Origin: Beroe forskalii
Lineage: Eukaryota; Ctenophora; Nuda; Beroida; Beroidae
Assembly: GCA_011033025.1 (NCBI GenBank)
Contig: WFMF01000005.1
Span: forward strand, 558,001-622,000
DNA length: 64,000 nucleotides
Direction of reading: 5' to 3'
The notes beneath the pieces were generated by a model. It saw nothing but the letters and a program-made list of their open reading frames with translations, was not told the DNA's origin and did no database searches. Every line of letters begins with the position of its first letter. Position 1 is the first letter of the stretch. Position numbers and translations under genes: made by a program. Shown here one piece after another: positions 7,201 through 63,000 of the stretch.

Positions 7201-10049
7201 CCATAGACATAGTAAGTAGAGTTCCTGTATTACACCTCATAGACATAGTAAGTAGAGTTCCTGTATTACACCCCCATAGACATAGTAAGTAGAGTTCCTG
7301 TATTACACCCCCATAGACATAGTAAGTAGACATAGTAAGACATAGAGTAGAGTTCCTGTAATACACCCCATAGACATAGTAAGTAGAGTTCCTGTATTAC
7401 ACCCCCATAGACATAGTAAGTAGAGTTCCTGTATTACACCCCCATAGACATAGTAAGTAGAGTTCCTGTATTACACCCCCATAGACATAGTAAGTAGAGT
7501 TCCTGTATTACACCCCCATAGACATAGTAAGTAGAGTTCCTGTATTACACCCCCATAGACATAGTAAGTAGAGGTTCCTGTATTACACCCCCATAGACAT
7601 AGTAAGTAGATAGTAGACAAGTAGAATTCTAAGTAGAGTTACACCCCCATAGACATAGTAAGTAGAGTTCCTGTATTACACCCCATAGACATAGTAAGTA
7701 GAGTTCCTGTATTACACCCCATAGACATAGTAAGTAGAGTTCCTGTATTACACCCCCATGAGACATAGTAAGTAAATTACACCCCCATAGACATAGTAAG
7801 TAGAGTTCCCGTATTACACCCCATAGACATAGTAAGTAGAGAGTTCCTATAGTAATTACACCCCCATAGACATAGTAAGTAGTAGAGTTCCTAGACATTA
7901 CACCCCCCATAGACATAGTAAGTAGAGTTCCTGTATTACACCCCCATAGACATAGTAAGTAGAGAGTTCATAGACATAGTAGAGTTATTACACCCCCATA
8001 GACATAGTAAGTAGAGTTCCTGTATTACACCCCCATAGACATAGTAAGTAGAGTTCCCTGTAAAAGGTTACATTACACCCCCATAGACATAGTAAGTAGA
8101 GTTCCTGTATTACACCCCCATAGACATAGTAAGTAGAGTTCCTGTATTACACCCCCATAGACATAGTAAGTAGAGTTCTGTATTACACCCCCATAGACAT
8201 AGTAAGTAGAGTTCCTGTATTACATTCCATAGACATAGTAAGTAGAGTTCCATAGACACCCCCATAGACATAAGTAGAGTTCCTGTATTACACCCCCATA
8301 GACATAGTAAGTAGAGTTCCACACCCCATAGACCCCATAGACATAGTACCATAGAGTTCTGTATTACACCCCCATAGACATAGTAAGTAGAGTTCCTGTA
8401 TTACACCCCCATAGACATAGTAAGTAGAGTTCCTGTATTACACCCCCATAGACATAGTAAGTAGAGTTCCTGTATTACACCTCATAGACATAGTAAGTTC
8501 CTGTATTACACCCCCATAGACATAGTAGTTCCTGTATTACACCCCATAGACATAGTAAGTAGAGTTCCTGTATTACACCCCCATAGACATAGTAAGTAGA
8601 GTTCCTGTATCACACCCCATAGACATAGTAAGTAGAGTTCCTGTATTACACCCCCATAGACATAGTAAGTAGAGTTCCTGTATTACACCCCCATAGACAT
8701 AGTAAGTAGAGTTCCTGTATTACACCCCCATAGACATAGTAAGTAGAGTTCCTGTATTACACCCCATAGACATAGTAAGTAGAGTTCCTGTATTACACCC
8801 CATAGACATAGTAAGTAGAGTTCCTGTATTACACCCCCATAGACATAGTAAGTAGAGTTCCTGTATTTAGACATAGTAAGTAGAGTTCCTGTATTACACC
8901 CCCATAGACATAGTAAGTAGAGTTCCTGTATTACACCCCCATAGACATAGTAAGTAGAGTTCCTGTATTACACCCCCATAGACATAGTAAGTAGAGTTCC
9001 TGTATTACACCCCCATAGACATAGTAAGTAGAGTTCCTGTATTACACCCCCATAGACATAGTAAGTAGAGTTCCTGTATTACACCCCCATAGACATAGTA
9101 AGTAGAGTTCCTGTATTACACCCCATAGACATAGTAAGTAGAGTTCCTGTATTACACCCCCATAGACATAGTAAGTAGAGTTCCTGTATTACACCCCATA
9201 GACATAGTAAGTAGAGTTCCTGTATTACACCCCCATAGACATAGTAAGTAGAGTTCCTGTATTACACCCCATAGACATAGTAAGTAGAGTTCCTGTATTA
9301 CACCCCCATAGACATAGTAAGTAGAGTTCCTGTATTACACCCCATAGACATAGTAAGTAGAGTTCCTGTATTACACCCCCATAGACATAGTAAGTAGAGT
9401 TCCTGTATTACACCCCCATAGACATAGTAAGTAGAGTTCCTGTATTACACCCCCATAGACATAGTAAGTAGAGTTCCTGTATTACACCCCATAGACATAG
9501 TAAGTAGAGTTCCTGTATTACACCCCATAGACATAGTAAGTAGAGTTCCTGTATTACACCCCCATAGACATAGTAAGTAGAGTTCCTGTATTACACCCCC
9601 ATAGACATAGTAAGTAGAGTTCTGTACACACCCCCATAGACATAGTAAGTACAGTTTCCTGTATTACACCCCATAGACATAGTAAGTAGAGTTCCTGTAT
9701 TACACCCCCATAGACACAGACATAGTAAGTAGAGTTCCTGTATTACACCCCCATAGACATAGTAAGTAGAGTTCTGTATTACACCCCCATAGACATAGTA
9801 ATAGAAGAGTATTACACCCCCATAGACATAGTAAGTAGAGTTCCTGTATTACACCCCCCATAGATATAGTAAGTAGAGTTCCTGTATTACACCCCCATAG
9901 ACATAGTAAGAAGAGTTCCTGTATTACACTCCCATAGACATAGTAAGTAGAGTTCCTGTATAACACCCCATAGAAATAGTAAGTATAGAGTTCCTGTATT
10001 ACACCCCATAGACATAGTAAGTAGAGTTCCTGTATCACACCTCCATAGT
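4252..10049. repeat. Satellite array, 36-37 bp unit, about 155 copies
   Basis: A head-to-tail array of a unit that reads GTAAGTAGAGTTCCTGTATT then ACACCCCCATAGACATA. Length varies by one base with the number of Cs (four gives 36, five gives 37). The core (about 5750-9620) is very homogeneous; both edges (4252-5700 and 9600-10049) carry truncated, fused and mutated units. On the minus strand each unit can be read in several frames as variations of ELYLLCLWG, which produces spurious frames. Every intact copy carries the hexamer GTAAGT, identical to a consensus 5' splice site. There are no spacers, so it is not a CRISPR. Confidence 0.97.
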
Positions 10050-36086: not shown

Positions 36087-39000
36087 GTACGTGTAACACT
36101 GTAACGAGACTCAATTACGTTTTAAGGGATTCAAGTTGTAATGTCTCGTGAGTCAAGTTGTAATGTCTCGTGAGTCAAGTTGTAATGTCACGAGACTCAA
36201 GTTGTAATGTCACGTGAGTCGTGAGTCAAGTTGTTGTGTCCCGTGATTGATTTGTCCCTTGTTTCACTAAACGAGTTCGCAAAAGTTAAGAGGAATATCA
36301 GAATATCAAGAGGAATATCTCGTATAAGTGGGTTTTAGAATTCATGAAACTCTTGTTCGTGTGAGTTTAAACTTGTAGCATGGGAATATTGGTGACCTAC
36401 TGAACGCAATAAGATTCATAGATAATGATAGGCTGAAGTCAAAGATAAGATACGAAATAGTTAGAAAAAGTTTTTTTTCTTTCAATTTGAAATATTCATA
36501 CTGCAGATGAAGTACTATTAATCTTGTTATTTTCCGCAATTGAATTCATCTTTTTGCCAACTGAATTGATGACTTTCCTCATGCCCTTACACGCAAGCTG
36601 CTCGACATTGCAGATGTAGGACACCACTTTGCTTTCTATAGCTTTGAGAAACGGAATCTCATCGCCCAGTTCTTGTCGTGCTACCATGAAACGCTTTGCG
36701 TCCGAGTCTGAGGGCTCAAAGTTACCGTCCTCAAAGTTCTCAAAAAGTAGATATTTCTTTTCTTCCTGGCTTGAAATCTGGGATGGTAATATGTTGGCGT
36801 GAGGAATTTATAGACACCTGAACCGAAGTTTGGTTAAATTTTATTTAAAATTAGTATGATTTTATTTTGCGTAACAAATAGCAACTAAATCCTAAGTCGC
36901 TAGACACTAGTGAAACAAGTCAGTTACGTATAACAAAATCTCAAATCTGAAGTAGGTGATCAGTAACTTAATAAAGTATCAATATGAATTGAGCTGATCC
37001 CTTACCAGAAGAGGGGCACAGTCGCCCCCTTTCAAAGCGCACCGATACTCAGCTATAGCCTCGTGAATCTTATTCATCAGCACCATGCTCGATTTCTTTT
37101 CCTCGCTATCGCCAGCCTTAGGGTCCATCGCCTTGAGGTACGCTTTCGCTGCTGAAATACCTTTCTTCGGTGGTTTCACATTCTTGTAATTGCAATCCAC
37201 CAAAAAGATGACGAAGAGGCAAAGCACGAATGACCGAAGTTTCATTGTGAATGTCAAAAAACAGTTAAGGCTACGAAAACAGAACCAGGCTACGAAAACT
37301 GAACCAGGAAAAGCCTATTTAAAACGTATTACTCCTTCATAAAGTGAGTCATTGTTTTTACCGGAAAATGAAAGTTCATTGGAGTTCACGAAATGTTCCC
37401 TGAACATCAAAGTACAGCATGTTTTCCAATTGGTGTGACTGTGGTGTCTCGACTCTTTCGTGCGCGGCGTATTAATATTACGACACGAGCCGCAAAAAGC
37501 AAATAAACATTTGCGCGCAGCAAAAATTCAAAAAACACACCGCGCGCCGTAATGCGCCGCGCACTAAAGAGTCGGGACACCACGGTGATATTGTCTGTCC
37601 CAAGGTTGGACACAGACGGAAGAGAGCTCGCTGCGGGAAGGGGGAGGGAATAGCCTCGCTGACAGCTCCTCCGGTCAGCACGGTAGCTGAGGAGGTGGTC
37701 ACACTCCTCAGAAAACTGCACTCCCTCCCCGACTGGAACTCTTCTATCAACGGGTAAATGGGAAAATGTGTAATTAGTGGGACTTTATTTCAATCTCTGA
37801 ACTCGAAGTGATTGTATTTCAAACATTAGACTTGAGTAAAATGATTCTCCTTTCCTCCCTTCACCAGACTTGATAACCCTTTCTCTTCTGCAGGTTTATC
37901 TCTAACTGGCTGAGCACCATCACCAACATCATACCCCTGGCTGACGACGGGGAGGGTGTGATAGGGAACCCCAGTATCATGGGGCCTCTCATAGCTGTAC
38001 TCAGCATGATAGGTAAGTAGCCAAGAAACTTCAGGGTAATGGGTGGAAAGGGCTCATTTATTTGAAAAAAGTAGAGGAAGTTTCCAGTCGTGGAGGTTTA
38101 AAATAGTTGCTGGTTTTCTATGCCGATTGGATGAGATTAAATAAACTCAGTTATGCCTTATGGTTTGTTCATACCATTCGTTCCGGGTTTAACGGTCCCT
38201 TAATTCCAGGCGGGGTAGACAAGAGACCGAGGCTAGGTTCACTCGTTGAGAACCCAAAGTGGGGCTTTGCTACCATCTGTAGAATAGAGCCCTCCGGCAA
38301 GATATCTCTACAACTTCAGGATCACAGCAAGAAGGCCTGCTTCTCCAGTTTATTGCTGAATTGACACGTACTACAAATCATCAAAACTCCACACTCCAAA
38401 GAATCGCTTCGTCACCCTCCTAACTCTCTGCACTGACAGGCTGCTTACATGAGCCGAATCACACAGAGGGGTGCTACGTCACACATTATGATACTCAGAG
38501 TGATGTGCCTTGGCCCCCGGTGTTGGCGGTGTATTTCTGTTGAAAGTATCACCCCTCTTCACCAAAAGTTTGGGACTTCCAACCTTTTGATAAAAGTCCT
38601 CCCAACTCGGGAGGACTTTATACCCTGCACACTACAATCTTAACCCTCCTCAGGCCTGCCTGCTTAGCGAGGACTTTTCACACTGCACACTACAATCTTA
38701 ACCCTCCCCAGGCCTGTCTGCTGAGCGAAGTTCAGCTGGTGGTTGAAGGAGCACTACACGTAGACAAACTACCCATGTCAGCTAGAGACATGGGGGTCTG
38801 GGCTTCCATCATCCTACTCGCTAGCGGATCTAGACGGCTAGGTCAGTACAGCTGGTCACTAGTGGAAATTGTGACATCAAAAACGTTAAATAGAGAATTC
38901 CTTTGTTTACCTTAAATCTGGACATGGTATCACATCCATGAAATGTTTAAATTCGACATGTTTCAGACTCGGAAGTGTCCCTGCCAGACCACCTGGCGAG

Positions 39001-42000
39001 TACCACTGGCATCGGACACATCAGGACTTCCAGTTGTTCTGCTATCGGGACCTCCAGCAAGAAGGGACACACGAGGACCCTCAGTGCGGGGGATGCGCCC
39101 CATTGCGAGGGAAAAGTAGTCGAAGGTAAGGGGGATGCGCCCCATTGCGAGGGGAATGTAGTCGAAGGTAAAGGGGATGCGCCCCATTGCGAGGAAAAAG
39201 TAGTCGAGGGTAAGGAGGATGCGCCCCATTGCAAGGGAAGAGTAGTCGAAGGTAAGGGGGATGCGCCCCGTTGCGAGGGAAAAGTAGTCGAAGGTAAGGG
39301 GGATGCGCCCCATTTCGAGGGAAAAGTAGTCGAAGGTAAGGGGGATGCGCCCCATTGCGAGGGGAAGGTAGTCGAAGGTAAGGGGGATGCGCCCCATTGT
39401 GAGGGAAAAGTAGTCGAAGGTAAAGGGGATGCGCCCCGTTGCGAGGGAAAAGTAGTCGAGGGTAAGGAGGATGCGCCCCATTGCGTGGGAAAAGTTGTCG
39501 AAGGTAAGGGGATGCGACCCATTCCGAGGGAAATGTAGTTGAAGGTAATGCGGTGCCACCATTGAGGGGGGAATTTAGTCGAAGGTAAGGGGAATAGGGT
39601 GAAAAGAAGTTTGGAGAGTTGGAACTTGGAAGTGAAGACGCTTTCAAAGAAAATTCAAAATTTGGATAATCGGAGGGGAAGGTTTTTTTAAAATAAGATA
39701 CAATTTCTGTAGATATCTCGAAAGTGGTTAACGTATAATCCCATTAATCCCCCGCCTCACCCTCACCACACCTCAGAAAAAGAAGAATCAGTCCCTGAAC
39801 GCGGTGAGAAACGTTCGGTAGACGAGGTGGCGGCTGAGTCGCCGCCTGTTGAGCCACCTAAGATAGACCCCGCCATGTTGTGGCGCCAGCTCCTCCTATT
39901 CGGGGTCCTCAAAGCCGCCAGGGTTCTCTTCCAAAGCCAGACCCGGCTACGAGCCATCATGGTAAACGCTCCTCCTGATACCTCCCTCCTTCCGAAGGGA
40001 TTCGAAGCAAACGCATCAGAACTACTCAACCAACCTGGCTCTTCTCAGCTCTTGAGACAGCTAATGGTAGGTTCTGCGTAGTTGGGAAATGGTAGGTGTG
40101 GGGAGGTATCTTCTGCGTGGTTGGGATTTGGGTACCTACCGAACTATTGGAATTTGGGCAAGTGATTAAATAATAAATTACGTATCTCCCCCTCCAACAA
40201 TCCACTACTTATCAGGTGTCTGCAACCCGGCCCAGTCCGGTGAAGGCTGTCTTTGCTCAGGAGGAGCTTGAGGTGGCTGCCCTGTCCCTCTCTCAGTTCC
40301 TGATGGCAGAGCTGCTCCACCCTGATCCAGCCTCCGAACCTACTTCCAAGGTAGCTTCTCAGGTCACTCAACCCAAAGCTTTTCATCCCTTATCCCAAAG
40401 CTTTTCACCACTCAACCCAACTTTCATTGGGCCATATTGTGAAAATTTTTCACGTCGTTTCATCTTCCATACTTTCATAAATTCTTATGCCAAAATGAGA
40501 ATCAATATATCATGCTATGAACCCCAAGGCTAAGAAAGTGAAGTCTCGGCCGAGTAGTGGGACCCAGCAACGCAGCAAACCCATCACCCCGGTGGTGAGG
40601 CAGATCCTAGACATGGGGTTCCTGCAACATCACATCGAACATGCGCTCACCTGTGAGTAGGAGAGGAAGAACTCTGATAATTAACAAGATCATATTTGTA
40701 GTATATTTGGTTGGTTTTATCTTTTCATACTCCTTTGGCCCTTTTCTTAATTCATTTTTCCCTTCTTGGCGGCCAAAACCACTACTCCCACCCTCACACA
40801 TCCCTTTTCCCTCAAATCCCTCACCCTGCAGCTCTGTCAGTGGCAGAACCCCGGATAGAGCAAGTAGTAGCGTGGTTGTTAGAGAACCCCACACCCCCAC
40901 CCTCCCCTCTAATCCCTCCCTCTGCAGCCCTGTCAGTAGCAGAACCCCGGATAGAGCAAGTAGTAGCGTGGTTGTTAGAGAACCCCACACCCCCGCCCCT
41001 CCCCCTCTAATCCCTCCCCCTGCAGCCCTGTCAGTAGCAGAACCCCGGATAGAGCAAGTAGTAGCGTGGTTGCTGGAGAACCCCACACCCCCGCCCCTCC
41101 CTGCCCCTCCCACTGCCGGTCCTGCTGTCCCAGACACCTCCCCTCTAATCCTCTCTCTGAGCGTCAGTAGCAATACTCTGGTTGTTAGAGAAGAGGAACA
41201 CCCCTGCCCCCTCCCCTCTAATCCCCAGTTAGAGGAATAGTTGTCAAGAACCCCCCCCCCTCCCCTGGGATAAAAAGAAATCGTAGCGTTTTGTTAGAGA
41301 ATTTTTCTCAATTTTTCAGTGCCCTGGTCTGCAGAACCCCGGATGGCTAGAAGTACATTATTTAGCGCCTTTTTAAGGTAATAAAGCATGTTGATACCTT
41401 GTCCGAATACTGAAGTATGACCTCATCTTCCTCCCCTAAGAAGAGTACTTGGACGACGAGTCTAACTACAAACTGCCCACTAACTTCCCCACACTGGACG
41501 CCTACGCGGAGTACGTACAGAACAACATCCGGGTGGGCATGCAGGTGAAGTGTATCTCCACCTACGAGGATGTGATCGTCGGGGATACCGGACATGTCAT
41601 GAAGATAGAGAACGAGGGACTCCACGATCTCAATGTTAGGGTGAGTGTTGGAATTGTAAAGTTTTACCCCACCCCCAGCCTCCTACTGTCTCATGAAGAT
41701 AGAGAACGGTATTCCGATCTTAATGTTAGGGTGAGTGTTGGAATTTGATCAATACCGTCCATGTCATGATAATATTAAAACGGTAAAGACTCCACGATCT
41801 AAATGTTAGGGTTAGTGTTGGAATTGTGGGGGATACCGGATATGTCATGAAGATAGAGAACGAGGGACTCCACGATCTAAATGTTAGGGTGAGTGTTGGA
41901 ATTGTGGGGGATACCGGATATGTCATGAAGATAGAGAACGAGGGACTCCATGATCTTAATGTTAGGGTGAGTGTTGGAATTGTGGGGGATACCGGATATG

Positions 42001-45000
42001 TCATGAAGATAGAGAACGAGGGACTCCACGATCTCAATGTTAGGGTGAGTGTTGGAATTGTCGGGGATACCGGGCATGTCATGAAGATAGAGAACGAGGG
42101 ACTCCACGATCTCAATGTTAGGGTTAGTGTTGGAACTTCTACAAAATACCTACACACGCGCCTATATCGGATCCATTTTGGGATACTTTCCGAACGATGT
42201 ATCCGAAAATGTACCCGCAGCCTGAAGGGTAAAGGTCTAAACCAATATGGACCCGATCAGGCAAGTGTCTATGTATTATACTTTATAGACCTCGATGAAA
42301 AAGTCAAAGGATTCTATGATTAGTAATTACACGATCTCAATGATAGGGTAAGAGTTGGAAATTCTTACAAATTTGTTGCAATAAAAATATGGAAACTTGT
42401 GAAGTCACAAAATCACCTTTGCTTTCAACATCGACTGAAGACTGTTTGTATGATGGACAAAGTGTCTGTCTATCATTGCTTCGTAGATGCAAAGAAGTTA
42501 TAATCCTACATCATTTGGGCAACAAATTGTCACTTTCTCTTTAATACCAATGTGCATAATTCTGCCACATCAGATGATATCGGGAATATCGTTCTGTGAA
42601 GATGTCGCCGCCAGGAAGTGTTCCTTGAGGAGTCTCTTCCGTTCGTCCCTGGAATCAAGCTGCTCCCTCGCATCAGGCTGCTGTGTCACCCTGCTCCTCT
42701 TCAAAAGGAGGGTCGTACTCACCTCGTACATCACTCGCAGAGACTTCTTCACGTGCTGGCTCTGCACTATTATCATGGAATTCAGGAAATTCAGCAGGAT
42801 GTTGCTTACCTCGTCGAAAAAGAGCATAAACTCGCAGAACTTCTCGTTTCCCATCCACGGTTTCGTTACAACCCGGTATCCCGCTAGGTTTACCAACCTA
42901 TGCATGTCGATCACGAAGGTCAGGCCGTATCCGAGGTAGAAGGTTGCTCCGAAAGCGAAGAGGAGTTTAAGACCGTTCACCATACTCTCCTTGGCCTGGG
43001 TGGCCTGCTCACAACCCTGCTCACTGATCCGTGTTATGTGTTTCCTGACTTGGCACGCGATCAGGACCAGGTATACCGTGACGATGGGGATGGGGGCCAT
43101 GTCGAACACAAGGAGGGAGAGGTTCAGGAACATACCAAAGTGAGAGTTATTCAGCGCTGGGTGATCTGCGGGGAGGGCATTTAGTGACCCGTGTAAAAAC
43201 TAAAAGCGGGATAGGGGTACTGGAACAGTGAAAAATATGGAGGTTTTGTTCAAATAAATTCGGTACTGTGCACTGATATTCTACAGAAAACGTGAACCTT
43301 ATTTCTTGCGGAAAGCCTCTAGATGGCTGACATGGAACGAAAAAAGGACTCACTTGCTAATAGGTAGTTGCAACAACAGATGACCCCTCCCCAAACCCAG
43401 TTAACAATCAGGAGTATCTTTGTAGTAAGGTGGGCAAAGCCTGGGTATCCCCTCACCAATCGGTATCTGTTGATCATCAGCTCTACTATTGTCATTTTCC
43501 AGCATACCCTGTAATCAGAGATGTCAGTACGGGACTACCTAAGTCTCAGAGAACGGCTGAGACGGAGCCGAGATTTAAATTGAGGGGCGCCTAATTGATT
43601 GGCTTACTCGCAGGACTCAATGGCCAATCAGCGTGCATAATCACAATTATCCTATGTACTGATTGGTCAGTGCACTGTGTGTATTCTAGGTTCTAGTTCT
43701 AAACCCAAAAGAGGGCAGTATACCTGAATATGTTGAGGACGAATGCGGTGTTCTGGTACCAGGCGAAATGTCGCGGCATCATGCACAGCACCACCCCCGT
43801 GGTAGCCATGGCCGCGTCCGATACTGTGATGTTGAAGTAGAGCAGCAGGACGGTGGACTGATGGAACTGGTGGGAGAGAACGTGTAAAAATCATCAAAAA
43901 ATACGACGTATTTGCTTCCAAGGGACAAAAGAACTGAATTTTTCTTCAAAATACGTGCATTCCTATGACATCTGAAAATTTCCATCTAGGGGTTGTTAAT
44001 TGCGTTAAAATACTCAAAAATGAGCCTGATTCATGAATTGAGCAAAATTTGAAATTAGAGCTCGTAAAGTCGTAAGAAACACCGCAGTTTCTGCAAAAAT
44101 CTGTATCGTATTTTGGCGCATTTCAAGAAAATACGTATCATATAACCACCTTGGAGAGCACGAGAGCCACGAGGACTATACCGGCGAGGATGATCGTAAT
44201 GACGCAGATCATCACGGCTGGAACGCTCACATAGTTGATGTAGGCGCTGATGGGGTGGCTCGTGTTCGAGCTGGCGTTAGAGAACACGTAACACGTCGTG
44301 GTGTTCTGCCAGCCTGCTGCCAGCATCCTCGGAGGACGGAGATTTCCGGAGTGCGATAACTATGATAATTCTAAGAGTGCGATTATTACATTACTAATGA
44401 CTTCGTAGCTGTCTTAAGTTATGACTTAACTAAGCTGGTCAATGATTACTACTGACTGGGCTAGTCACTTTTGACTTAAAAAGCGATATCCTATGGTATG
44501 CATCCCCGCGACAATTTTTGGTTTACAATTTCTACTCAACGAATTGTTTTGATGTTCTCCAATCACCAACTAGACATTGTACGGTATCAGCCTTATTTTC
44601 TGTACGGTCTTCTGAGAAATTCTAACGTCGTAAAAAATAACTTCCTTTTTGTGATCTGGCCATTTCATGAAACGTGCGTGAATAGTGGCTTAGAGTTTTG
44701 AATTGCTATTTCGAGTCAATTGCTACTCAATAGTAAGATTCGCAATCTTGATAGAGGAGTGAGGGTATTGGTAAACTGTAAGAGAGACGAGATCAAGGGT
44801 AAACAGTGGAGGGATAAGTGTATATTTCTCAAGGAAATTATTACAAAAGATTACTTCTTTACCCGGAAAAATAAACATTGCTTACCTCCTCCCTGTATTT
44901 ACTGGTTGTCGCTGCCTGGGTTTCACTTTCATTTCAGATAAAAACTACGGGATGTAAATCGTACTTTTTCAGGTGAGCTGGACACGGAAGTGCGGGAACT

Positions 45001-48000
45001 ACTGGGTCAAGTATGTAAACATTCAACTTCTCGGGTCAACTGGCCTTCAGGATGACCAACCGATCAAGAAAGGGGACAAGTAAGGGCCTTTTGAGCGATT
45101 TAAATTTACTGAGATATTTTAGTTAGAGGCGAATGATTTGATATTTTAACATTTATATTTCATTATTTCAATTTATGATACCTCTCAACACCCCTCCTCC
45201 AAGTTTTCAAGTTTACAATTACAGATAAGATAAGCTATCGCTTTGCTATTTTGAAACTCTCCTCCATCTTATTAACAATTTATTGCGATCGATCCCCCAA
45301 TTCCATGCAATTTTCTCTCCTAAACTCCGGGCATTATTTGTGATCGATCCCTCCCCAATTCCATGCATTTCTCCCCCCTAAACTCCTAAACTCACCGTAT
45401 CTAAAGTCAAAACTCCCTGTGGTGTGTGCATTTATTATGATGGATCCCTTCCAATATCGCGCATTTCTTCCCCCCCCCCCCAACTCCTACACTTCCCCTA
45501 AACCCCTTACCCTGCCCCCGCAGAGTCCGAGTGCTGCTCCCCACTAAACCCCCTTTCTCTGCCCCAGAGTCCGGGTGCTGCCCCCCACTAAACCCCCTTT
45601 CCCCACCCCCAAAGTCCGTGTGAGGCGTAGCGTCAACACGCCCAAGTACAAGTGGGGGAGTGTCTCGCACAACAGCATAGGGATAGTTTCGGAGGTGATC
45701 GCCAGCAAGCAAGACGTCTACGTGGACTTCCCTGAGCAGAAGAAGTGGACCGGACCCATGTCCGAAATGGAGAAGGTAATGTCCGAAATGGAGAAGGTAA
45801 TGTCCGAAATGGAGAAGGTAATGTCCGAAATGGAGAAGCTAATGTTCGAAATAGAGAAGGTTATGTCCGAAATGGAGAAGGTAATGTGGTACCAGTTAGT
45901 GATATACCTATGTCATGATTTGATCATGGCACCCCCCTGATTTACATGGATGATGTTTCAATTTTGAGAGATATTTAATCAGATTTTTGTCTAAAGACTG
46001 CAGCCTTGAAACTTTTTTCTGCTGATAATATTTTTCAAATCAAAATTGTTACATAACACATTTTACATCTTATAAAGACATTCATCCGACATAGATCAAT
46101 TTCGTTCATTACAAGCAATTGTCACATTCGAATCCATCGATCACCCCATAGATATCTTTGATAACGTAGGCTGTGTACGTTGCATCCGGCGTCGCAAAGC
46201 CTCGGGGGACTTTAGACTTTAAGATATCACTGAATGAGTAGCAATTTCCACGAACAGTTATCCCTCTGATCTCGTACTTCTTCGCACCCTTCAACATCAC
46301 CTTTAGGTCCGCTGCATATCCATCCATTTCAACTCTTTCCAACTTCCCGCGCTTCTCCTCCTGCACCTTCCCTCCCACCAGTAACTGCACTCTCTGTTTG
46401 CCCTGAATCCCGCCCATCCAATCTATCACCACCTCGCTCACCCTGCACAACCCTTCCAAATCAATGGTTATCCACGAATTCTTCGACTTGCTGCTCCAAT
46501 GAGTACTCTCATCACCGTCCACCAGCTCCCATCCCGATCCCTCCACGGACGTTACAACGGGACGGGAAAGCGAGATGTCCTCCTTCACTCTGTCTCCCTG
46601 TCCCATGATCACAATCTGCCGGATTCCGTAGTAATACATCCCGTACCACGGGTCCACTGATCCGTTCCTCATCTCTAACTTAACTTTTGTCGTCAGTCCT
46701 TCCCATCCCTCCAGGACCCCCCATGCGTTGTAAGACTCGTCCTCCCTCAGCTCGTCCTCCCTGGACTTTACCTTGACGTACTTACCATCGATTTCAGCGA
46801 GAATATCGTAATCGTTGTTGTACGACGTGCCCCACCAGTGTATTTTCAGATAGTTAACAGAGCAAGGAGCTCCCAGGTCTATCTCCACCCATGCTCCATC
46901 CTCGTCTACTGCGGCCCACTCCCCACCCTCGTAGGATATAACCTGCGCCTCCTCCTCCGCTTCACTGGCTCGTACGGGCCTTTTCAACGCTACATTCCTC
47001 TCTTTTTCAGCTTCGCTTTCGTTCTCCTTCAAGTGGGGAAGCATTCTTTTCTGCAGCACGTTTTTATCCACTCTTGAAGGATGTCCACTCCAAAAAAGGA
47101 TGTCCAAATGATTCCAAAGATCGTAGTTCTGAGGACACAGAGAAGTTGCCTCATCCAGGAGCTGAAATTGCATGTCCTCGTTAACAAAAGATCCTGCTAA
47201 AATTCTTAGTTTTTCTGAAGTTCGGTATGCTTCAGAGTTAAGCTGGGCTTCTGTCATCATGGTAAAGAAGGGTGCAGCCACTTTCCAACTGTACTGAATA
47301 CCAGTGTGAGTAGTACTTTTCTCCCACCCACTGATATCTTTGGCTAGGTGCCAATCTGTGCCGTTTTTCTGCCAGATAAACGCAGTGTGTCCTCCGGGCT
47401 GACTTACCGGAAGGGCCGGGATACCGAATGCCTGAGCCATTCCCGACCCAAACTTTGAGGAAGCCCCACTCAACCCTCCGATGGTATGAATCCATTCCAA
47501 AGTAACTGGCTTCCCGTAGTAATAGCCGGATTCGAAAACACTAATCCCGTCATCGTTAAAGAGCTTTAATTCGACCATGCTGTGCGTTACAGATCCTATC
47601 TTGTTAGGATCTCTGAACTCTTCCAGCACATTTTCCCGTGCCCAAATCAGCTCCTCGTCCTTTGCCCACGATCCGACAACGTAACGCATCTGCCAGGCAC
47701 TCAGGCGGTAGAAAGCATCGAATAAGAGTCCTTCATCTCCCCACTTAGCATAGCTGTGGTACCGAGCTAACCCGTCAATCTCACTCCCGTCTGCCGTGGA
47801 TATGACAGGAGTTGAGAATGTCAAACCGATGGCGATCGCTAGTTTCAGTTTCCAGCCCTGTTTGGCTTTCCTGTCTTGTTCTAAGATTTGAGCCACGATT
47901 CTTACTGCTTCGCCCCATCTATCATTCTCAACATCGCCAGATGTTAACAGTGTCTCTAGGGCATTTATGTTGTTCAAAATCCACATTACAAATTGATTTT

Positions 48001-51000
48001 GTAACTCAATGGTTTGTTCTCCATATCTAATTATGTTGTGTAGCAGTTCTAATTTGTAAAGTTTCAGTGCGTTCTTAGAGTTTCTCGTGTATTTCTTGAA
48101 ATCCTTCACGGTTGTAAAACCTTCAATCTCATCCTTGATTCTCTGGTGTACTTCATCCACTGCTTCGGCGAGTTCTTCGTCTACATCCGGGTCAGAGGTT
48201 TGCGGATCAGAGGTTTGCATGCGTGAATCACTGGAAACTTTGTCTGGGCTCATCCGTACGTTCAGCCATGAGTCGTCGTAGGTCTCCGGCATACGTCCCC
48301 CTTCGTCATAATTCCTAGCTGCCCCGAGGTTAACCACCACAACCAGAGATATCCAGTGCACCAGTGTCATCTTTTTTGCTTGGAGGGTCATCTTCACCAA
48401 AGAAATGCAGTGCCAACAAAGAATATTGCTGGGTCAGTTGGAGCAGAAATTATAACTTGTTGGCGAAAATTTAATTTAATATCTGTGGTTAGGTTATAAA
48501 AAGCTGGGTTGTCACTTTTACTCAAATAAGAAACATCTAATGCAAAATGAAATACCATTGTTAGTGTTTATAAATTGATGTCTGATTAGATTAATTGCTG
48601 CCATTTTGTTAATTTGATTTATATACGCTTAAATTTCGTCCGTAAATTGAAGAATTTTCCTAAGATAATTTTGCTGATAGTCGGTTTACGTTTCAGAAAA
48701 AACGAAATAAATTATGAATTACAGCTGAAATTCTCAAATTCACGGTTTCCTTCAACCTTCTACAGCAAATCGTACATGATAAGTGCATTTCGTGTGAGCT
48801 TTTTTAAAACCAATTTTCCGGGTATGTATAATTGAATAACTGGTGCCGTTTTCATTCACTCCATGGTTTGATAACGAAGAGAAATTTCTAAGCATCTGGA
48901 GGTCTTCATTCAGACTAATAGTCTGGTAAGTTTTGCACATAATATATTGGATGAAATCTGCAAAAATTGTTGCAGTTCTATGGACACTTTTTATACCTTC
49001 CTTAGACCATTTAGAACGGAAAAAGTCCGGGAGATAACTTTTTCAGATGGGGCTCTCCCCATTTTCGGGCCACGCCCTTTTTCCAGTCATCGCACGAACT
49101 GAAATTCCATATCTTGGCTTAGGAATGTCGCGCAGACTTCGTTCATAGCTCAAACGAATTACAATCATCATGTTTATGAGGAAATGAGATATGGGCCAAA
49201 AACATATTTTTGGGCTCTCGCAACTCATAATTTGGTCAATTATCATATCATGGCCTAGGAAGGTCAACCAGACTTTGTTCATAACTCAAACGAAACACAG
49301 TCATGATTTTTTACATACATGCGAGCACATCAATATAATGCGCTCAAAGCAATATCATGCGCTCACATCAATATCATGCGCTCACATCATTATCATGCGC
49401 TCACAGCAATATCATGCGCTCACATCATTATCATGCGCTCACACCAATATCATGCGCTCACATCAATATCTTGCGCTCACAGCAATATCATGCGCTCACA
49501 TTAATATCTTGCGCTCACAGCAATATCATGCGCTCACAGCAATATCAAGCGCTCACACCAATATCATGCGCTCACATTAATATCATGCGCTCATAAATAT
49601 CATGCGCTTATATCAATATCATGCGCTCACAGCAATATCATGCGCTCACATCAATATCATGCGCTCACATCGGATTATCATGCGCTCCTGTGTTCGCGCT
49701 CACATCATTATCATGCTCACACCAATATCATGCGCTCACATCAATATCTTGCGCTCACAGCAATATCATGCGCTCACATTAATATCTTGCGCTCACAGCA
49801 ATATCATGCGCTCACAGCAATATCATGCGCTCACACCATTATCATGCGCTCACATTAATATCATGCGCTCATAAATATCATGCGCTTATATCAATATCAT
49901 GTACTCACATCAATATCATGCGCTCACATTAATATCATGCACTCACATCAATATCATGCGCTCACACCATTATCATGCGCTCACAGCAATATCATGCGCT
50001 CACACCAATATCATGCGCTCACATTAATATCATGCGCTCACACCAATATCATGCGCTCACACCAATATCATGCGCTCACAGCAATATCATGCGCTCACAT
50101 TAATATCATGCGCTCACAGAAATATCATGCGCTCACAGCAATATCATGCGCTCACATTAATATCATGCGCTCACAGAAATATCATGCGCTCACAATCACT
50201 ATCATGCGCTCACATTAATATCTTGCGCTAAAATATTTTCTCTTCAATATCAATAGCCTAGAAATTGAAGTCAAATAACCTGAATCAGGCCGGATTTCCT
50301 AATCCATGTGTTCGCCCAACACCCCATGACCCTGTCACTCTCAGGTGCCTGTGTCCCACATGGGGACCTTCTGTACGCAGTGCAACCAGTGTCCCCTCCA
50401 AGGCCCCCTCTTCGCTTGTACGCTGTGTATCGGTGTCACTATGTGCGGCACCTGCTTCAAGACAGCCCGACACCACTCCCACCCCTTCAACAGAACTAAC
50501 GAGCCAGGCGACACACCAATACCGGCAGGTGATACGGCCGTGCGATGAGTTTATTCAGAAATCAATGTCGCCGGATTATTGATGAAATTTTTTCGTCGTC
50601 CGAAAACCGAGTCATTCTTCCCTTAGGTCACTTCCCTGTTGCATACTTACCTATTTTAGAAATGGAGAGGTGCCATCAAACCACACAAGGAGGTGTGCTG
50701 GTCTGTGGATGCCAAAAAGAGTATTCTGGGGGCCTTCCAATTAGGGTTATTACCGAATCCGGCAAATATTTGATATTCGAAATATTCGATATATTCGAAG
50801 TTGTTCGAATATCATGATATTTGATACCATTCGATATTCGCCCTCTATTCGATACTATTCGGTATTCAGGTAAGCCAGGTCGGACCAAGCGTCGTCGGCA
50901 GAGTCTGATCTACGAGTGGAGCAGGTGTGTCAGGAGCATCAGCGTCAGTTCCAGGGAGGGTCAGGCCAGCTACCTCAGTGATTCTAGTGAGCAGTACTGG

Positions 51001-54000
51001 ACGGGAAGCGGGTCCAAGCACTGGATCAGACTCGAGATGCAGCACAACGTACTCGTTACGAAACTTACCATGGTAAGTGGATGGCGTTGGAATCTGACAA
51101 ATTGAAATCCTTTGTGGAGATCGTAATTTTAAAATCAACTTAGGGGGTGACTCATTCTTTAGACTCCTTCATACAGAATTAGGAATCCTCATTGAGGAAT
51201 AATCTTTCGTAGAGAAAATTCATTACTTCCTCTCCTCAGACAATGCTGACTGACGCATCAGAGCAGCTCTACCGGCCCAGTTCGGTGACAGTGCTGGGTG
51301 GTGAGACGATCTGGACACTCAAAGAGCTGAACACCGTGGAGATAAGCAGTGAGGAGTACACTGCCACACTGCTCAGATCCTCACCGGAGGAACACAGGTA
51401 GTCAAATTGATGGATAAAAACAGCTCTTAAGCTGTGAGAAGCAGAGTTTTAATAACAAAAATAGTGAATTAATTTCTTTAATCATCGGCACTTTTATAAC
51501 CAGGTAGGGTAGAGAAGGTTTGGGCTGCAGATTAAGTGGAAGAGGGGTGAAGTAGGGGTTAGGGTTTGAGCGAGACTCAGGTGAAACATTTCGAGGTCCA
51601 TGCAAGCGAGTATACGAGGGGACAGGTTGGAATCATAGATAAGGAAATAGAAGAATATAACTTGGGATTGAGATAATGAAATATATTAAGTTTTGTTGGA
51701 ATCAAGCGGGTTAGTCGGGTTAGAATAGATACTGTTTCACAGATTAAAATCAGTAGAACTAATATTTATAGCGATTTACTGAAGGTTGCTCTATTAGTTT
51801 TAATCCTCCTCAGATACATCGAGCTAGTGATACGCGGCAAAAGACCTGGTGTCGATATCAAAGTGAAGAACATCGGAGTAGTTTGCCGACCTCGCACTGT
51901 TCAAGACGACATTGCCAAAGGTAGAAACTTTTAAAATATTAATTCTTGAGCAAAATCAGTAAAACCACAGGTAGCTAAAATCATGAAATGATAGCAACCA
52001 ATCCAGAAATATCTGACAACTGATAATTATGAGACAGTTCTTAATTTATAAAACCTTTCGACTCATTAGTACCGGTAAATTACATACGATGTGTTCGCAA
52101 TTTCTTTTTACTGACAATCAATTTCGTTGTCCTACGACATCTTCGGCCTGTCTGTAGCTGATTGTTCGATAAACTATCGATAGAAATCCACATCCCGCTC
52201 ATTTCCGCACATATCTGCACATTTCCGCTTCATGTCGTACCTGCACATCATCATTTTCCTGTATAGAAACTGCCGGGTGTGCTTCTGAAACAGAGAAGAT
52301 AAGTTTAGATTATATTGACCGTTTTTGGGAGAATTTTCGAAAATTCCTTCTTCATTTTTCTTCTTGTAAAGAAACCCCGAAGGCTTGCAGTTTCAGGAAT
52401 TCGTGAGATAATATATCACTAAATATATCACTAAATAAGGCAATATTCAAGTGCATTTATGAAAACTCATGTTTGAAATATCTGCCATGCCGTTTGCTGC
52501 TTATCTATAGTGTTTAGTTGCAATAGCAAGAAATTTCACCTCGCAAAGTAGGATGATGCTGTCAATGAGGCTGTTAAGACACAGAAAGATGACTCCTACA
52601 TCCATGACATTACACAGCAACAAGTCCTCCCAACCCCACGAGTCACCCCCCTCCTTGCACAGCCTCCCAAATTCCCCCGGCCCGTGGGTTGTCATGTAGT
52701 AGATCCTCTCCCCATTCAGCACAAGGTTGTGTACGTAGCACATGGTGAGGTTGAGAGTGATGTAGAAACTCGTCATTCTGGCCGTGAGGTATACCGCCCG
52801 CCGCAGCTTGTACTTGGAGTTGGCAATACAGACCTGCGTGTAGATAGACATGGAAATAGCAAGCACGATCGCAATGGTCTCCAGCAAGTCAACGGCTTCC
52901 ACGAACTTATCCGGGAATGGTTCTTGTGGTTTGTTGTAGAGATCATCGAAATAGACGTAGAGACAGCACATGATGGCCATGCAGTAAGCGAATCCCACTC
53001 CTACCCTGGCGACTATCTTGAGGCTGTCAATGATGTACAGGGCTCTCATCTTGAGACACAGCAGTCGGATTAGGGCCAGGGTGAAGACCAGGAAAATGGT
53101 GGCATCGAAGGAAAACAGGAAGAGATATCCGTCTACCTTGTGTATGGTCGGGAGGTGGCCCCAATTGTTGTCTGACGAGTTATAATCCGGGTTCCATGCC
53201 TCCACGGATATCCCTATTCCGATGACGGTAGTGACGAGGTTTGTCAGGACCAGGTTTAAGTAGATGAAGTTGGAGGGGGAGCTAAGTTTGCCCATGTTGA
53301 GGAAGACGATTAGTACCACCAGACCGAGGAGTAAACTGGAGGCACTGACTACGGGCATGAAGATGCGCAGGAAGGTGTGGAACAGAGTGCGGATCTGAGG
53401 GGGATCCGGCCCTCCGACCAGAGGTCGGGTGATGAGCATGGGGGCGAGACTGTAAACGGGTTAAAAGTGGGTGAAAATGTGTAGAAATATAACTGCAGGA
53501 GGAAGAAATGAAGTTACCCCGGCTGCAACGTTTGGTCCCCATGTGATTTTCTTCGGATGTGTACCTACTCATACGAACAAAATATTGTTTACCTCTTCAA
53601 TATATTCAAAGATGGCTTTGAGTAGAAAGCCATGGGATATTCGGTTACTGTTTTCTTTTCAGAGGAATTCACCGAAAAAATATAAATTGTACGGAACTGT
53701 GTGAAATTTTATGATGGTAAAAAGAGGGTAAGAATTCATTATGAAGTAAATGATTATGTTTTTCGAATTTTTGGTTTAACGAGATGAGAAAAATTAGAAA
53801 CATATTTCCACATCCAAGTCACACCCTTGCAACAATGGAGGCAAAAAATGTTCGACTTCCAAAATATGATCTATGGTTTATGTTGGGCTTTCCAATGAAC
53901 GAATAAATGATGAGTGCCGGTGTCTTTTTAGAAGTTTTTGAATGATACTCAAATGTAAATTTTTCTGGTCTTCCTTCATATTCACATTCATTTCTTTTAA

Positions 54001-57000
54001 CATATTCAGTATCGATTTGTGAATAATTCACAAATCGATAATCTCAAATAATTCTCATTTCCTGATATGAAAACCTGAAAATTTCTATTTCCTGACAGGT
54101 CTGTCGTACCTGTTGGCTGAAAGTAACGTGTCCCAAGCGTCTGATACCGGTGAGGGAACGTGTTCCACCCAAGAGGATAGCGGAATCAATGTGAGTATTG
54201 GGAATGGTAACGCGGGATCTTTGTAACATTTTCTTTCTACTGAAAACTGAGTATTCCGGCGATTATCCATAGCACTAACAGAAGTGATGAATTCTGTTTA
54301 TTTAGAACGCGATAACACAGTCTCCTTATACGCACTTTCCATGTTTTTTGGAGTGCTTTTGGTAATTATTCTTGCACTTTCAACATGTTTGATTGTTTGT
54401 TTGAAGCCCATCTCTCCCTGACACCTCACATCCCCAGGTGTTCTTGTGGGGTCTGAACGACAAGGAGCAGCTAGGGGGACTGAGGGGCAGCAAAGTGAAG
54501 ACCCCCACCCTCTCACCAGTGTTCACTGAGTTGGGGGTTACCTACGTGGCAGGGGGCAGCAAGTGCCTCTTCGCCTGTACCACGGACGGCAAAGTGAGTT
54601 TCTCAGTAAAGGGGTCTTTAAGTGAAAGAGTCTCTAAATAATAGAGCCCTGAAGTTAAAAAGTCGCTAGGTGAGTCTCTAAGAGATTAATTTCTGGTCGG
54701 TGATACTAATTCTGAATGTTCTCTCTTTCATGTAGAATTCCCTTCTTTTCACTCGAGAGTGATCCCTGATGACCCACTGAAATACCCTTAACCCTTACTA
54801 TTCCTTCTCTCTTGCAGGTGTATGCGTGTGGGGAGGGGAGTAAGGGCCGTCTCGGACTAGGGCACAGCAACAACGTCTCCGTGCCCCAACTCATCAAGGG
54901 TCTGGGACAGTACGTTATCAAGAAGGTGGCCATACACTCTGTGGGCAAACATTGCCTGGCCATAAACACTGCTGGTGAGATTAAGAGTAATTTATTAATG
55001 ATAAGGAGTAATTAAGAGTTATTGATTTGGAGCCATTAATTTGGAATGATTACCATTAGTCGGGATGACCATCTTTGGAATGCAGGAATGTTATGAAGTT
55101 TTGAAAACTAAACCATGAAGATAGATGACAAGCAGATCGTAATACCATCTCAGCCATCACCAGTCATCGGCAGCCTTCCAATGACTGGCTTCCAATGACT
55201 GTGAATGGAAGGCTATCATTGACAGTAGCTATCACTGATCATGCTCAGGAAGGGTATTCTCGTGGGGAGAAGGAGAGGACGGCAAGTTGGGACATGGCAA
55301 CTGCACCATTCTGGAGGAGCCAAAGATGGTACGTGGTCATATCCTGTAAACTAGAACCTAAATGATATTACTATACAGCTACCCTGGTTACGCATCATCA
55401 TGATGTTACTAATACTAGTGGTAACACATTGTGTTACCATGGTTACACATCATGGTGTTACCTTGGTGACGCATCATGGTGTTACCATGGTTACACATCA
55501 TGGTGTAACCATGGTTACACAGTGGTGGACATAGCACCTTACCATTTACACCCCCACAGATAGAGTGTTTGAAGTCTAAGCGGGTAGTGGACATAGCACC
55601 TTACCATTTACACCTCCCCAGATAGAGTGTTTGAAGTCTAAGCGGGTAGTGGACATAGCACCTTACCATTTACACCTCCCCAGATAGAGTGTCTGAAGTC
55701 TAAGCGTGTAGTGGACATAGCACCTTACTACACCTCCACAGATAGAGTGTCGTCAAGCGGGTAGTGGACATAGCACCTTACCATTTACACCCCCACAGAT
55801 CGAGTGTCTGAAGTCTAAGCGGGTAGTGGACATTGCACCTTACCATTTACACCTCCCCAGATAGAGTGTTTGAAGTCTAAGCGGGTAGTGGACATAGCAC
55901 CTTACCATTTACACCTCCCCAGATAGAGTGTCTGAAGTCTAAGCGGGTAGTGGACATAGCTTGTGGAGATGGGCACAGTGCTGCCATCACTTCCTCAGGA
56001 GAGCTTTATACCTGGGGACTGGGAACCTACGGCAGACTGGGCCATGGTGACACCAAGACCTACCACAAACCCAAACTGGTGAGTGGAAACCCAAACTGGT
56101 GAGTGGAAACCCAAACTGGTGACCTACCACAAGTCCTAACTGGTGAGTTGAAACCTTAACTGGTGACCTATCACAAGCCCAAACTGGTGACCTACCACAA
56201 GCCCAAACTGGTGACCTACCATAAGCCCAAACTGGTGAGTTGAAACCTAAACTGGTGACCTACCACAAACCCAAACTGGTGACCTACCAGTACCACAAAC
56301 CCAAACTGGTGAGTGGAAATGTCTGCTGCACGTGGGGACGTGACGGAGAATCCTGTTGCCTGCTTTTCGATTGATTGATTGTCAGGGTTATTCAAATTTC
56401 ATTACAGTATTCATATTCCAATTTCCATTACAGCAAATGAAATTCCGGTTTTGATAGTTTGATATTTCGTTTATCGTTCTAGCTTTTGTGTGGTTTTCTT
56501 CCCCTTGTATTTTTATCTACTAACCACAGTACAGAATTGCTGTACCCCGATCAGTCCATGTCTTTAAGGTTAGTGGGCAAAAAATAATAATAATAATAAT
56601 AATGAATTGAAAATCATGCTCATAACATGCTCATAGATTTATGCAAGCTTCATACTGGAATGAATAAGAAAGGTTCAATGAGGTTAATAATAATTTAAGG
56701 CCTAAAAACCAACAAGTGCTCAGGGCTAACAAGGGGTCATCAGTTGGGCAAATGGCATCTTGTATCCTCGTGTAAATTTCATAATAAGATGATGGAGATG
56801 AAAATCCCGATAGTCATCAAATTACAAATTCGATTACCACTGGCTTCGAGGCGTATGCTGCTGGCTTACAGAGTTATGCCAGAAATAAAACAATCTAAAA
56901 TATGAGAAGCATTGAACATGCACAGAGTCCATGTTTGTGTATGTTTAAATTTTATGTATTATGCTTATTAAAATTAACTTTATTCTTGAGTTAATCTACT

Positions 57001-60000: not shown

Positions 60001-63000
60001 CGTTAACCACGATACATGAATTATAAAAGCTCTTACTTATAATAAATAACTTATATTGACCTATTGAGATTCTAGTGAAAGCCTACACACGGTATTCAAA
60101 CTGATAAATTTTGACGTTTGTTATTAATCAAGTCACCCATATCACTATGAAAGGACGCCCTACTATACGTAAGACGGCAACCCGCATCGCAGTCGAAAAT
60201 ATAAAAAAGTTGAAAATAATTGTTGCTTAAAATTTGGTATGATATTGACCCTCTGATAATAAAAGTAAGATCCCTGGAAACTGCAGGTCTGAAATTTCAA
60301 ACTCTTATTTGTACATCTGCAAGGCTACGCGCGCAAAATTTGGCATATTGACGCCGCGCATTTTGAGTCCGGGTGTAAATTTCATCTTGAAATAACTCTG
60401 CGAAGTAAAAATGATATGCGCGCAAAATGTGCGCGCGCGTTACGTAGTCTCTGTTCAAATTAATTTCCTTTATTAAATTGTTTCGTTTTCTAATTTCGTT
60501 TTCTAATTTCTTCTTTTTCATTATCATTTGATTGTAGCTTTGCTATGTAGTACGTCTCTTAATAATTTTACAAAAAACGCCCGCGATTCCACTGTCCAGA
60601 TATTAGTAATCTTTGCTCCAAATTCATGAACATTCTGGCTGCAGATTACATCAATGCATTTTGAGTTGTGATGAAGCGTATTTCATATTTTAGCTCATGT
60701 ATTTTGGTAATTGGTTTTAAATTTGGTACATTCGGCGTTGGTAATGGTTCGGTTATGGTACAGAATCCTATATTGCATGTGAAGACAATTGAGTGGATTT
60801 TGGGTTGATATCAGCTAACAACCTCCTTGAATGATGTTTTAGTACCTTGTGGGAATAACACAATATGTACCCCTTTTCCACTGTATCTTCTACATTTGTT
60901 GTTTGGTTCGTCAAGTTTCAATTTAGTTCTGTTAGAAGTAGTAAAATAGTAAAATAATGGAAATAATGTAAGGTACCATTATATTCCATAGTTCCAAGAT
61001 GCGTTTTCTCTTCATTTTTTTGTTTATGGTTTTGCTTTATATTTACCCGTTTGTGTACTCTTCGAAACACAATACATATTGAACCTTCAATTTGGCTTAG
61101 TATTCGAGTGCATTCGATAAAACATTCATGATATTTGCGGTGCGCGGACAAAACACCACCCGGACAAAACCCCACCCGGACATAACCCCACCCGGACATA
61201 ACCCCACCTTAGAGCACAAATTGCGCGAAAGGGACGCTCGTGCGTAATCCTGTGACGCAATGTTACGGTTAGGGTTAGGACGTATGGTTCGCACGAACGT
61301 TCCCATCGCGCAATTTGTGCTCTAAGGTGGGGTTGTGTCCGGGTGGGGTTTTGTCCGGGTGGGGTTTTGTCCTACCATCGCAAATTGCTTCAATCAGCGT
61401 ATCTTCGTGGTTTTTTATACGCCATGTTCTATTATGAAAATGTTTTTCTAGTAAACTGTTTTTCAAAGAACTGTTTTCCCGAAAATCATGTTTTTCAAAA
61501 ACAAAATTTCCGGAAAACCGTTTTCTCAAAATCATGTTTTTCAACAGTTGTTACAAGTTGGTGTAAAAATTGAAAAAAAATGATTTAAAACATGATTTTG
61601 AGAAAACGGTTTTTCAAAAAACCGTTTTCCGAAAATTTGTTTTTGAAAAACATGATATTCGGAAAAAGAGTTCTTTGAAAAACAGTTCACTTAAAAAAGT
61701 TTTATTAATAGAACATGGCTTTTATAAAACACCATATATTTGAGCATTCTGTTGAATTTGATGTTGGGCTCCTTTAATAATAATTCCGTCATTGGGCCAT
61801 ATTCTACCTTGCACTTAATCTTTCTGAAGAAAGCCGTGCAATAACCGCCAGTAATCCCAGATGGCGGGAATCACGCGAATCAAGTACTGGATTCTCTTCT
61901 CGCTCATCACCCTCAGCCTCATCCTGTACCACCTGACCAACCTGGCTGAGCAACGGGCCCGGGACTTTGAGACGAAGATGCTGAGTGCGCTCCAAAGCGA
62001 CATGGCCGAGCTGCAGCAACCCGTAGACTCGTTACACCTAAGTCCGCCCTCCCAGGAATGGATGAAGAGACAATACCGGCAAACTGCCGCCTTCCTAGGT
62101 TTCAACTACACTCCTCCCAACCGGTGGAAGTCCTGCAGGAACTCCTTCAACACCCTCTACTTCCCCAAAATAAACGCCGTGTTCACGGGGGTCCCTAAGG
62201 CGGGCTGCTCCAACTGGATGGAAGCTCTAATGATTGCAGAGGGTGTGATTAACGGGCCTCTGGAAGACGTGGACCAAGTCCACAACCTGTACGCCAAGCC
62301 GTACCGTATGATGTTCCTGGGACGGTTCAAGAAGATCGTATCCGGTAGGTTCGTAGCCCCGGACTTCAGTTTTACGGGAATCCGGAACCCGTGGACGCGG
62401 CTTGTTTCCGCCTACAAAGACAAACTCCAGCCAGGCACCAATCTACCTTCCGCCGTTGAGAAGGTCATGAGATATTTGAGGAAGAACGTGGCTCAAAGTG
62501 AGGATTTGAGGAGCAGGTCCTATCCAACGTTTGAGGAGTTTCTCCTGTACATTATCGCGAATGAGGGATCAGCCAACTACCACTTCAAGCAGCAAGTGCA
62601 CACGTTATGTCTCAAAGTCGCTGAGTACGATTACATCGTTCCGCTGGAGTATTCCTCGGTTATTGCAGGCGAAATATGGAGCAAGTTAAATGCTTCCGTC
62701 GAACTTCCCATGTCGTATGACAAATCTAGTGATCCACGGACTCAACGGTCAACTGTTGAAGCAAAGGCCATGTTTTCGAAGATAGATCCAGCTATCGTGG
62801 AAGAGATTTACAAACTGTACAAGCCTGACTTTATGCTAATGAACTACAGTAATTTCACAGATCCAAACTTTCCTATGCCCATTATCGATTGATTATCATT
62901 TCCGAAAATAATATGTTTTTTAGGTTTCCCAATTTATTTGAATTTTCTGCGCACTTGTATTTAAACTCATTCATATCAACTACTGTAGTAGGTGCTTTAT

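Follow-up and report, generated by a model that had tools for sequence, protein, structure and literature searches.

Eight exon–intron borders of a HERC2 gene lie inside tandem arrays, and the repeat unit of each array combines an exon edge with its splice signal. Part of the gene is encoded on the forward strand of contig WFMF01000005.1, positions 558,001 to 622,000, the 64,000-nucleotide stretch analyzed here (hereafter the window, to which coordinates refer unless another contig is named), and the arrays fall between 38.6 and 56.3 kilobases (kb). Their presence, their placement, their reading frames, their shallow reach into exons and their spread over several genes are directly established. 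We consider it likely that these are minisatellites of the type called mirages in amphioxus, produced by random tandem duplication and filtered by splicing.

HERC2 splice junctions within tandem arrays

Tandem Repeats Finder recovers an array at each of the eight junctions listed in an initial annotation of the sequence, all on the forward strand, and the copy numbers given there are approximately right by motif counts, reading-frame test and the sequence itself. Four of the arrays contain acceptors. The first consists of 2.0 copies of a 58-base-pair (bp) unit (38611..38728); copy 1 leads into a stop codon, while copy 2, the last, with its exon start at 38712, is open and in frame. A 98-bp acceptor-plus-exon array of 3.0 copies (40809..41101) holds three acceptors, and in the frame test copies 1 and 2 meet a stop before the presumed donor, leaving the last copy (exon from 41026) in frame; the donor of this repeated exon is weakly supported. 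At 55525..55960, where a 62-bp unit is present 7.2 times, the last copy (exon from 55923) is alone among the seven in being in frame, and those before it meet stop codons.

The fourth acceptor array (45498..45622) is made of three copies of 44 or 45 bp, which the program reports as 2.8 copies of 44 bp. In its last copy CAA replaces the acceptor CAG, and the in-frame AG is lost. Two of the seven AGs tested keep the frame, that of copy 2 (45567, adding 15 residues) and an exonic AG at 45624 (removing 4 residues). Judged from the sequence, and barring an assembly error, splicing must use one of these two. Across the acceptor arrays, frame thus favors the last copy in three of four, and the last copy of the fourth is the one with the mutated in-frame AG.

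The other four arrays carry donors. A 42-bp array of 12.1 copies (39088..39592) follows exon 38967-39125, which is without a human match and has phases 1 and 1, compatible with both neighbors; the frame is open with copies 1–10 of 12 and does not discriminate which copy is used. Seven donor sites are spread over a 78-bp array at 41600..42135. Its first copy (exon end 41640) stands apart from the remainder, so that the program span of 5.7 copies begins at 41691 (41691-42135); with this copy the frame is open, and LHDLNVR joined to the next 11 residues aligns with human HERC2. The 21-bp array at 45758..45887 (6.2 copies; exon end of the first copy 45775) keeps the frame in all six donor copies, the fourth of which has CT, not GT, and its first copy gives the conserved SEMEK-VPVSHMG (human SEMEL-VP). 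Finally, a mixed 20/24-bp array with 11 sites (56057..56300; program rows from 20 to 92 bp) has GTGAGT at five of them. Only the first site (exon end 56078) stays open, yielding the conserved HKPKL-VSAFKGY. By frame and protein conservation, the first copy is therefore the favored one in three of the four donor arrays, and the array at 39.1 kb is indifferent.

Splice signals counted by motif number 2 at 38.65 kb, 12 at 39.1 kb, 7 at 41.6 kb, 6 (5 with GT) at 45.8 kb, 7 at 55.5 kb and 11 at 56.1 kb; the motif used for the arrays at 40.8 and 45.5 kb detected only two signals each, where frame test and sequence give three each. Copies match one another at 82–94% in seven of the eight arrays and, by row, at 76–100% in the mixed one. 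A further array, of 48 19-bp units (49318-50229), lies deep in a HERC2 intron; 11 of its bases recur in an exon end 9 kb distant (40640-40650), a match that could be due to chance.

Gene model and mapped junctions

A translated piece of the window matches human HERC2 chains 9l8y and 6ww3 in the Protein Data Bank (expectation values 4.6e-16 and 6.1e-10). Spliced alignment over C580:588001-644000 gives a collinear HERC2 from about 35.9 kb of the window to about 20 kb beyond its end; the N-terminal half has no collinear match within the 80 kb preceding the window. The one piece of the gene searched against the genome, 961 bases long, has a single match and no second locus.

Alignment queries were hand-entered human protein sequences for HERC2, PRPF8, XPO1, POLR2A, SF3B1 and CLTC, the aligned set; pieces of dynein and spectrin were also in the homology query. 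Junctions were called from protein alignment, GT-AG signals and reading frame rather than from complementary DNA. For HERC2, 46 aligned introns were reduced to 33 donors and 35 acceptors by removing, merging or replacing weak ones by hand, and exon 38967-39125 was inserted manually. In the other genes we kept 4 of 6 aligned introns (PRPF8), 13 of 14 (XPO1), 13 of 16 (POLR2A), 13 of 15 (SF3B1) and 4 of 9 (CLTC), and a partial POLR2A copy on C438 was excluded from the junction counts. Three hand-set boundaries are 1–5 bases off (39129 for 39125, 38965 for 38966 and 45562 for 45567), and the two of these that are within arrays still lie inside them.

Junction arrays beyond the first interval and in other genes

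Both flanking bases are inside an array at 18 of the 162 mapped junctions. These comprise 11 of 68 in HERC2, 4 of 8 in PRPF8, 2 of 26 in SF3B1 and 1 of 26 in POLR2A; the mapped parts of XPO1 (0/26) and CLTC (0/8) have no junction in an array. When junctions up to 3 bp away are included, 10 of 80 donors and 10 of 82 acceptors are counted, such that both border types are affected. HERC2 itself continues the pattern past 64 kb, with arrays across junctions A65806, D69393, D75780 and D77034 and a 161-bp array at 80.0–80.6 kb that copies the 5′-most 50 bases of the exon at 80762. Units of the junction-crossing arrays range from 17 to 98 bp, with sequences that differ between loci, and one crossed SF3B1 junction has a 29-bp unit repeated 35 times, running to the edge of the analyzed piece.

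A motif search covered 221 arrays in 334 kb. AGGTRAG, on either strand, recurs in register in five arrays, compared with none for the reversed control, while single sites outside arrays are about equal (75 vs 71). The looser GGTRAG gives 12 arrays against 7 (singles 222 vs 245), and the acceptor motif 5 against 1 (singles 84 vs 62). Of the five AGGTRAG arrays, three are at HERC2 donors, and two follow open exons that have an upstream acceptor and end in the first array copy; these exons belong to one or more unnamed genes and look coiled-coil-like by eye. Flanks were inspected for three looser-motif arrays: two have no clear exon, and in one the motif is antisense to the adjoining exon. Duplication at borders, which the annotation had deduced from HERC2, is thus seen at the level of the genome, in PRPF8, POLR2A, SF3B1 and the two exons of the unnamed gene(s).

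One POLR2A intron with an array beside, not across, its acceptor is present in two genomic copies, 336 bp long in one and 343 bp in the other, with an equal number of units. A difference in copy number reported by the repeat finder (6.6 vs 4.6 units) was withdrawn after alignment gave equal units. The second, partial POLR2A copy (C438 vs C465) is near-identical over 440 bases and may be an uncollapsed haplotype or a duplicate.

Placement of arrays relative to borders

We then compared array placement with chance in the six genes, using the hand-curated junction set. Coverage was measured in introns longer than 220 bp, and both coverage and placement tests require that the two intron ends be mapped, which leaves the 38.65-kb array (one end mapped) outside the 56 arrays tested; the SF3B1 array of 35 29-bp units was left out of the founding-duplication test. 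Arrays cover 17.7% of junctions (17/96) and 2.7% of exon interiors. In the same introns, the covered share of the interior is 23% as a mean per intron and 28% when all are pooled. Whole arrays slid at random would cross 17.1 junctions, and 17 crossings are observed. Because arrays are this common throughout introns, most of the pattern fits random birth, and random minisatellite birth with a splicing filter accounts for most of it.

Of 16 crossing arrays, 14 extend into the exon by a single unit or less. Such a shallow reach suggests that a random model should place the founding duplication instead of the array in its expanded state. When a founding unit is placed randomly in the unexpanded intron, 16 of 56 arrays cross a junction against 6.3 expected (P 2e-5). 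Outside the interval of the initial annotation the excess persists (10 of 38 vs 4.5 expected, P 0.004), and it is strongest for arrays scoring at least 150 there (9 of 18 vs 3.1, P 0.0001). If half of each intron is made unavailable, the excess outside that interval falls to 10 against 7.6 expected (P 0.17), whereas the strong arrays retain theirs (9 vs 4.9, P 0.008). The annotation's expectation that arrays meet splice sites more often than random placement would predict is accordingly borne out for founding duplications and fails for whole arrays. The extra excess at borders is about two-fold and depends on the null model.

These data bear on the strongest alternative, in which duplication is aimed at borders: transcription, the spliceosome or R-loops would raise breakage or slippage there above the minisatellite background. 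Genome-wide motif counts (216 megabases (Mb), 1134 contigs) offer it further support. Pairs of CAGGTAAGT within 8–38 bp number 219, compared with 20 for the reversed motif, and occur on at least 19 contigs compared with 5, while single sites number 1734 vs 1365. GGTAAGT pairs 6 bp apart also exceed the reversed motif (88 vs 21), mainly owing to two large arrays on C338 and C887. AGGTRAG triplets, by contrast, show no genome-wide excess (6379 vs 6323 reversed); among the matches listed, one large array makes up much of the total and few loci are visible. Two of the three counts therefore support a border excess, although such counts do not establish any given array as a junction. Against aim at borders stand the missing per-base excess, with junctions less covered than intron interiors, the half-intron result for all arrays, and the absence of crossed junctions in XPO1 and CLTC. 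Crossing arrays are also slightly richer in guanine and cytosine (GC) than interior ones (0.488 vs 0.449), so base composition may contribute. The targeting proposed in the annotation is possible on these data. It is conceivable, though we would not expect it, that tandem duplication in this non-chordate animal is actively biased to exon–intron borders genome-wide; with approximately one in nine mapped junctions in an array, splice sites and exon ends would then be continually offered for sliding, exon growth and intron gain. An explanation of the arrays by such aimed duplication remains a minority reading for us, a good deal less probable than random birth.

Proposed origin and remaining alternatives

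Random duplication followed by a splicing filter would proceed as follows. Short tandem duplications would arise across much of the non-coding DNA of the genome, probably where short direct repeats allow slippage or template switching; arrays would then grow by further unequal copying. Where a founding duplication spanned an exon–intron border, the additional copies would fall in the intron, and transcripts would stay correct if splicing took the site closest to the exon body, namely the first donor copy or the last acceptor copy. Duplications extending deeper into coding sequence would mostly be purged by selection. Splicing as the filter, already suggested in the annotation, agrees with the exon reach of the crossing arrays and with the stops that exon-distal acceptor copies meet in three arrays. 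For the origin, 12 exact two-copy duplications are flanked by direct repeats with a mean of 3.75 bp (at least 2 bp in 9 of 12, with one outlier of 13), a pattern suggestive of microhomology-driven slippage or template switching; this is a hint, and no more, in favor of the replication slippage that the annotation had named. Three parts of this scheme are inferred: which splice sites are used, the origin by slippage and the unequal growth.

Several points weigh against it. The gene models depend on hand-entered human sequences, splice choice is deduced from frames and protein conservation rather than RNA, and the microhomology sample is 12. The number of units is unchanged in the sole array seen in two genomic copies. 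Lastly, the excess of strong arrays over random founding implies that randomness alone may not suffice.

Extra copies might instead have been retained as useful, serving as reserve splice sites or encoding variable peptide inserts. Open frames in all six copies at 45.8 kb and in copies 1–10 of the 12 at 39.1 kb are in keeping with this, as is the array at 45.5 kb, where a repeat unit may have turned coding. However, just 1 of 11 copies is open at 56.1 kb, and exon-distal acceptor copies run into stops. Donor units are divisible by three in 4 of 10 arrays (42, 21, 78 and 33 bp), close to the approximately 3.3 expected by chance, or in 5 of 10 if the mixed 20/24-bp array is taken as 24; the others measure 43, 32, 40, 17 and 29 bp. 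A peptide-repeat function was rejected on the ground that unit lengths have no clear bias to multiples of three, and we hold retention for usefulness in general to be improbable.

Even less credit is due to an assembly artefact, in which the assembler would have expanded single-copy junctions: copies diverge within arrays, units are unrelated between loci, the pattern is common to three contigs (C580, C377 and C465), and the array-bearing POLR2A intron measures 336 and 343 bp in its two genomic copies. A mobile or introner-like element carrying splice signals is least plausible of all, because every crossing array repeats its own local exon edge with a unit length and sequence particular to the junction; a single transposon, which the annotation had already discounted, was rejected on account of the unrelated units, none being shared by unrelated junctions at the loci examined.

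Other features of the window and genome

The window, with a GC content of 41.2%, also holds a 5.7-kb array of 156 37-bp units (4330-10048). Three intronless open frames lie within HERC2 introns at 46112-48400 (reverse strand), 52504-53439 (reverse) and 61864-62889 (forward); one encodes F5/8 type C domains, one is without a Pfam match and one is a sulfotransferase. The sulfotransferase has a homologue in the ctenophore Bolinopsis microptera at 45% identity, and nine of its 38 relatives rank higher. No RNA family in the window exceeds its gathering score.

Dynein heavy chain matches at G000:C534:80419, G000:C1024:1425456 and G000:C26:9350 fall within reading frames that stay open for 3010, 3715 and 1583 codons, and these genes therefore apparently have few or no introns. 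Clathrin heavy chain matches in opposite orientations on one 70-kb contig (G000:C784:28583-29461, reverse, and 65181-65378, forward) could reflect an inverted duplication or an assembly fold-back. We know of no ctenophore with a nuclear-receptor DNA-binding domain. A search for this domain returned no genome match, and the controls of the method were likewise silent; the same method found Wnt matches on six contigs. Four Wnt genes are described for Mnemiopsis (PMC2959043), and ctenophore assemblies of 111–265 Mb with 37.5–43.1% GC are published (PMC11797021). Identities to human proteins look low for a lancelet. Gene content and the sulfotransferase homologue together make a ctenophore the likely source of this DNA.

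Comparison with known systems

The annotation had held that multiplicity of this kind was undescribed. This was mistaken: amphioxus mirages are the same phenomenon (PMC3087553, PMC3902484). Amphioxus globin genes carry minisatellite-like duplications of intron–exon boundaries at both 5′ and 3′ borders, and the name was taken from work on amphioxus Adh3 (Canestro 2002, per PMC3087553). Further mirages are found in PGBD5, with TnC mentioned (PMC3902484), and units measure 10 to 160 bp, many of them, not all, with AG/GT signals (PMC3087553, PMC3902484). For the globins, reverse transcription polymerase chain reaction (RT-PCR) suggests normal splicing, and an intron-gain model is offered (PMC3087553). 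As in Adh3, the globins BflGb6 and BflGb9, PGBD5 and TnC, the arrays described here are boundary-spanning minisatellites at both borders with differing units. They differ in probably belonging to another phylum, in numbering eight over 18 kb of a single gene, and in recurring in conserved core genes; for amphioxus, RT-PCR, allele-length and somatic-instability data are reported, whereas the present one is known from genome sequence alone.

Internal tandem repeats also occur at exon–intron boundaries in human segmental duplications, where minisatellites expanding at borders are able to change splicing and give rise to introns (PMC2812944). Those cases, as presented there, involve recent paralogues in one genome, often with a changed transcript, unlike the conserved HERC2 and PRPF8. 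Under the proto-splice-site model of intron gain, a single unit supplies both ends of a new intron, whereas the donor and acceptor arrays of this genome differ in unit and lie on introns that fit the gene model. The likeness is that the AG/GT duplication of that model, which is cited in PMC3087553, also spans a splice-competent site.

A literature search, made mostly among papers free of subscription, found no report of such arrays in ctenophores, including in the accessible text of PMC8527503, PMC12221973, PMC11797021 and PMC4685580. The arrays thus probably belong to an already described class of minisatellite, here in a new lineage and affecting more genes than the published cases that we found. 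Those cases come from a few genes of a single group of chordates, compared with HERC2, PRPF8, POLR2A and SF3B1 in a lineage that is probably distant. Two questions thereby become testable: whether transcription or the splicing machinery directs tandem duplication, and by what means a spliceosome passes over many close and intact copies of its own signal. Arrays of this kind also offer raw material from which splice sites could slide and introns be gained, and the acceptor at 45.5 kb may be a case in progress.

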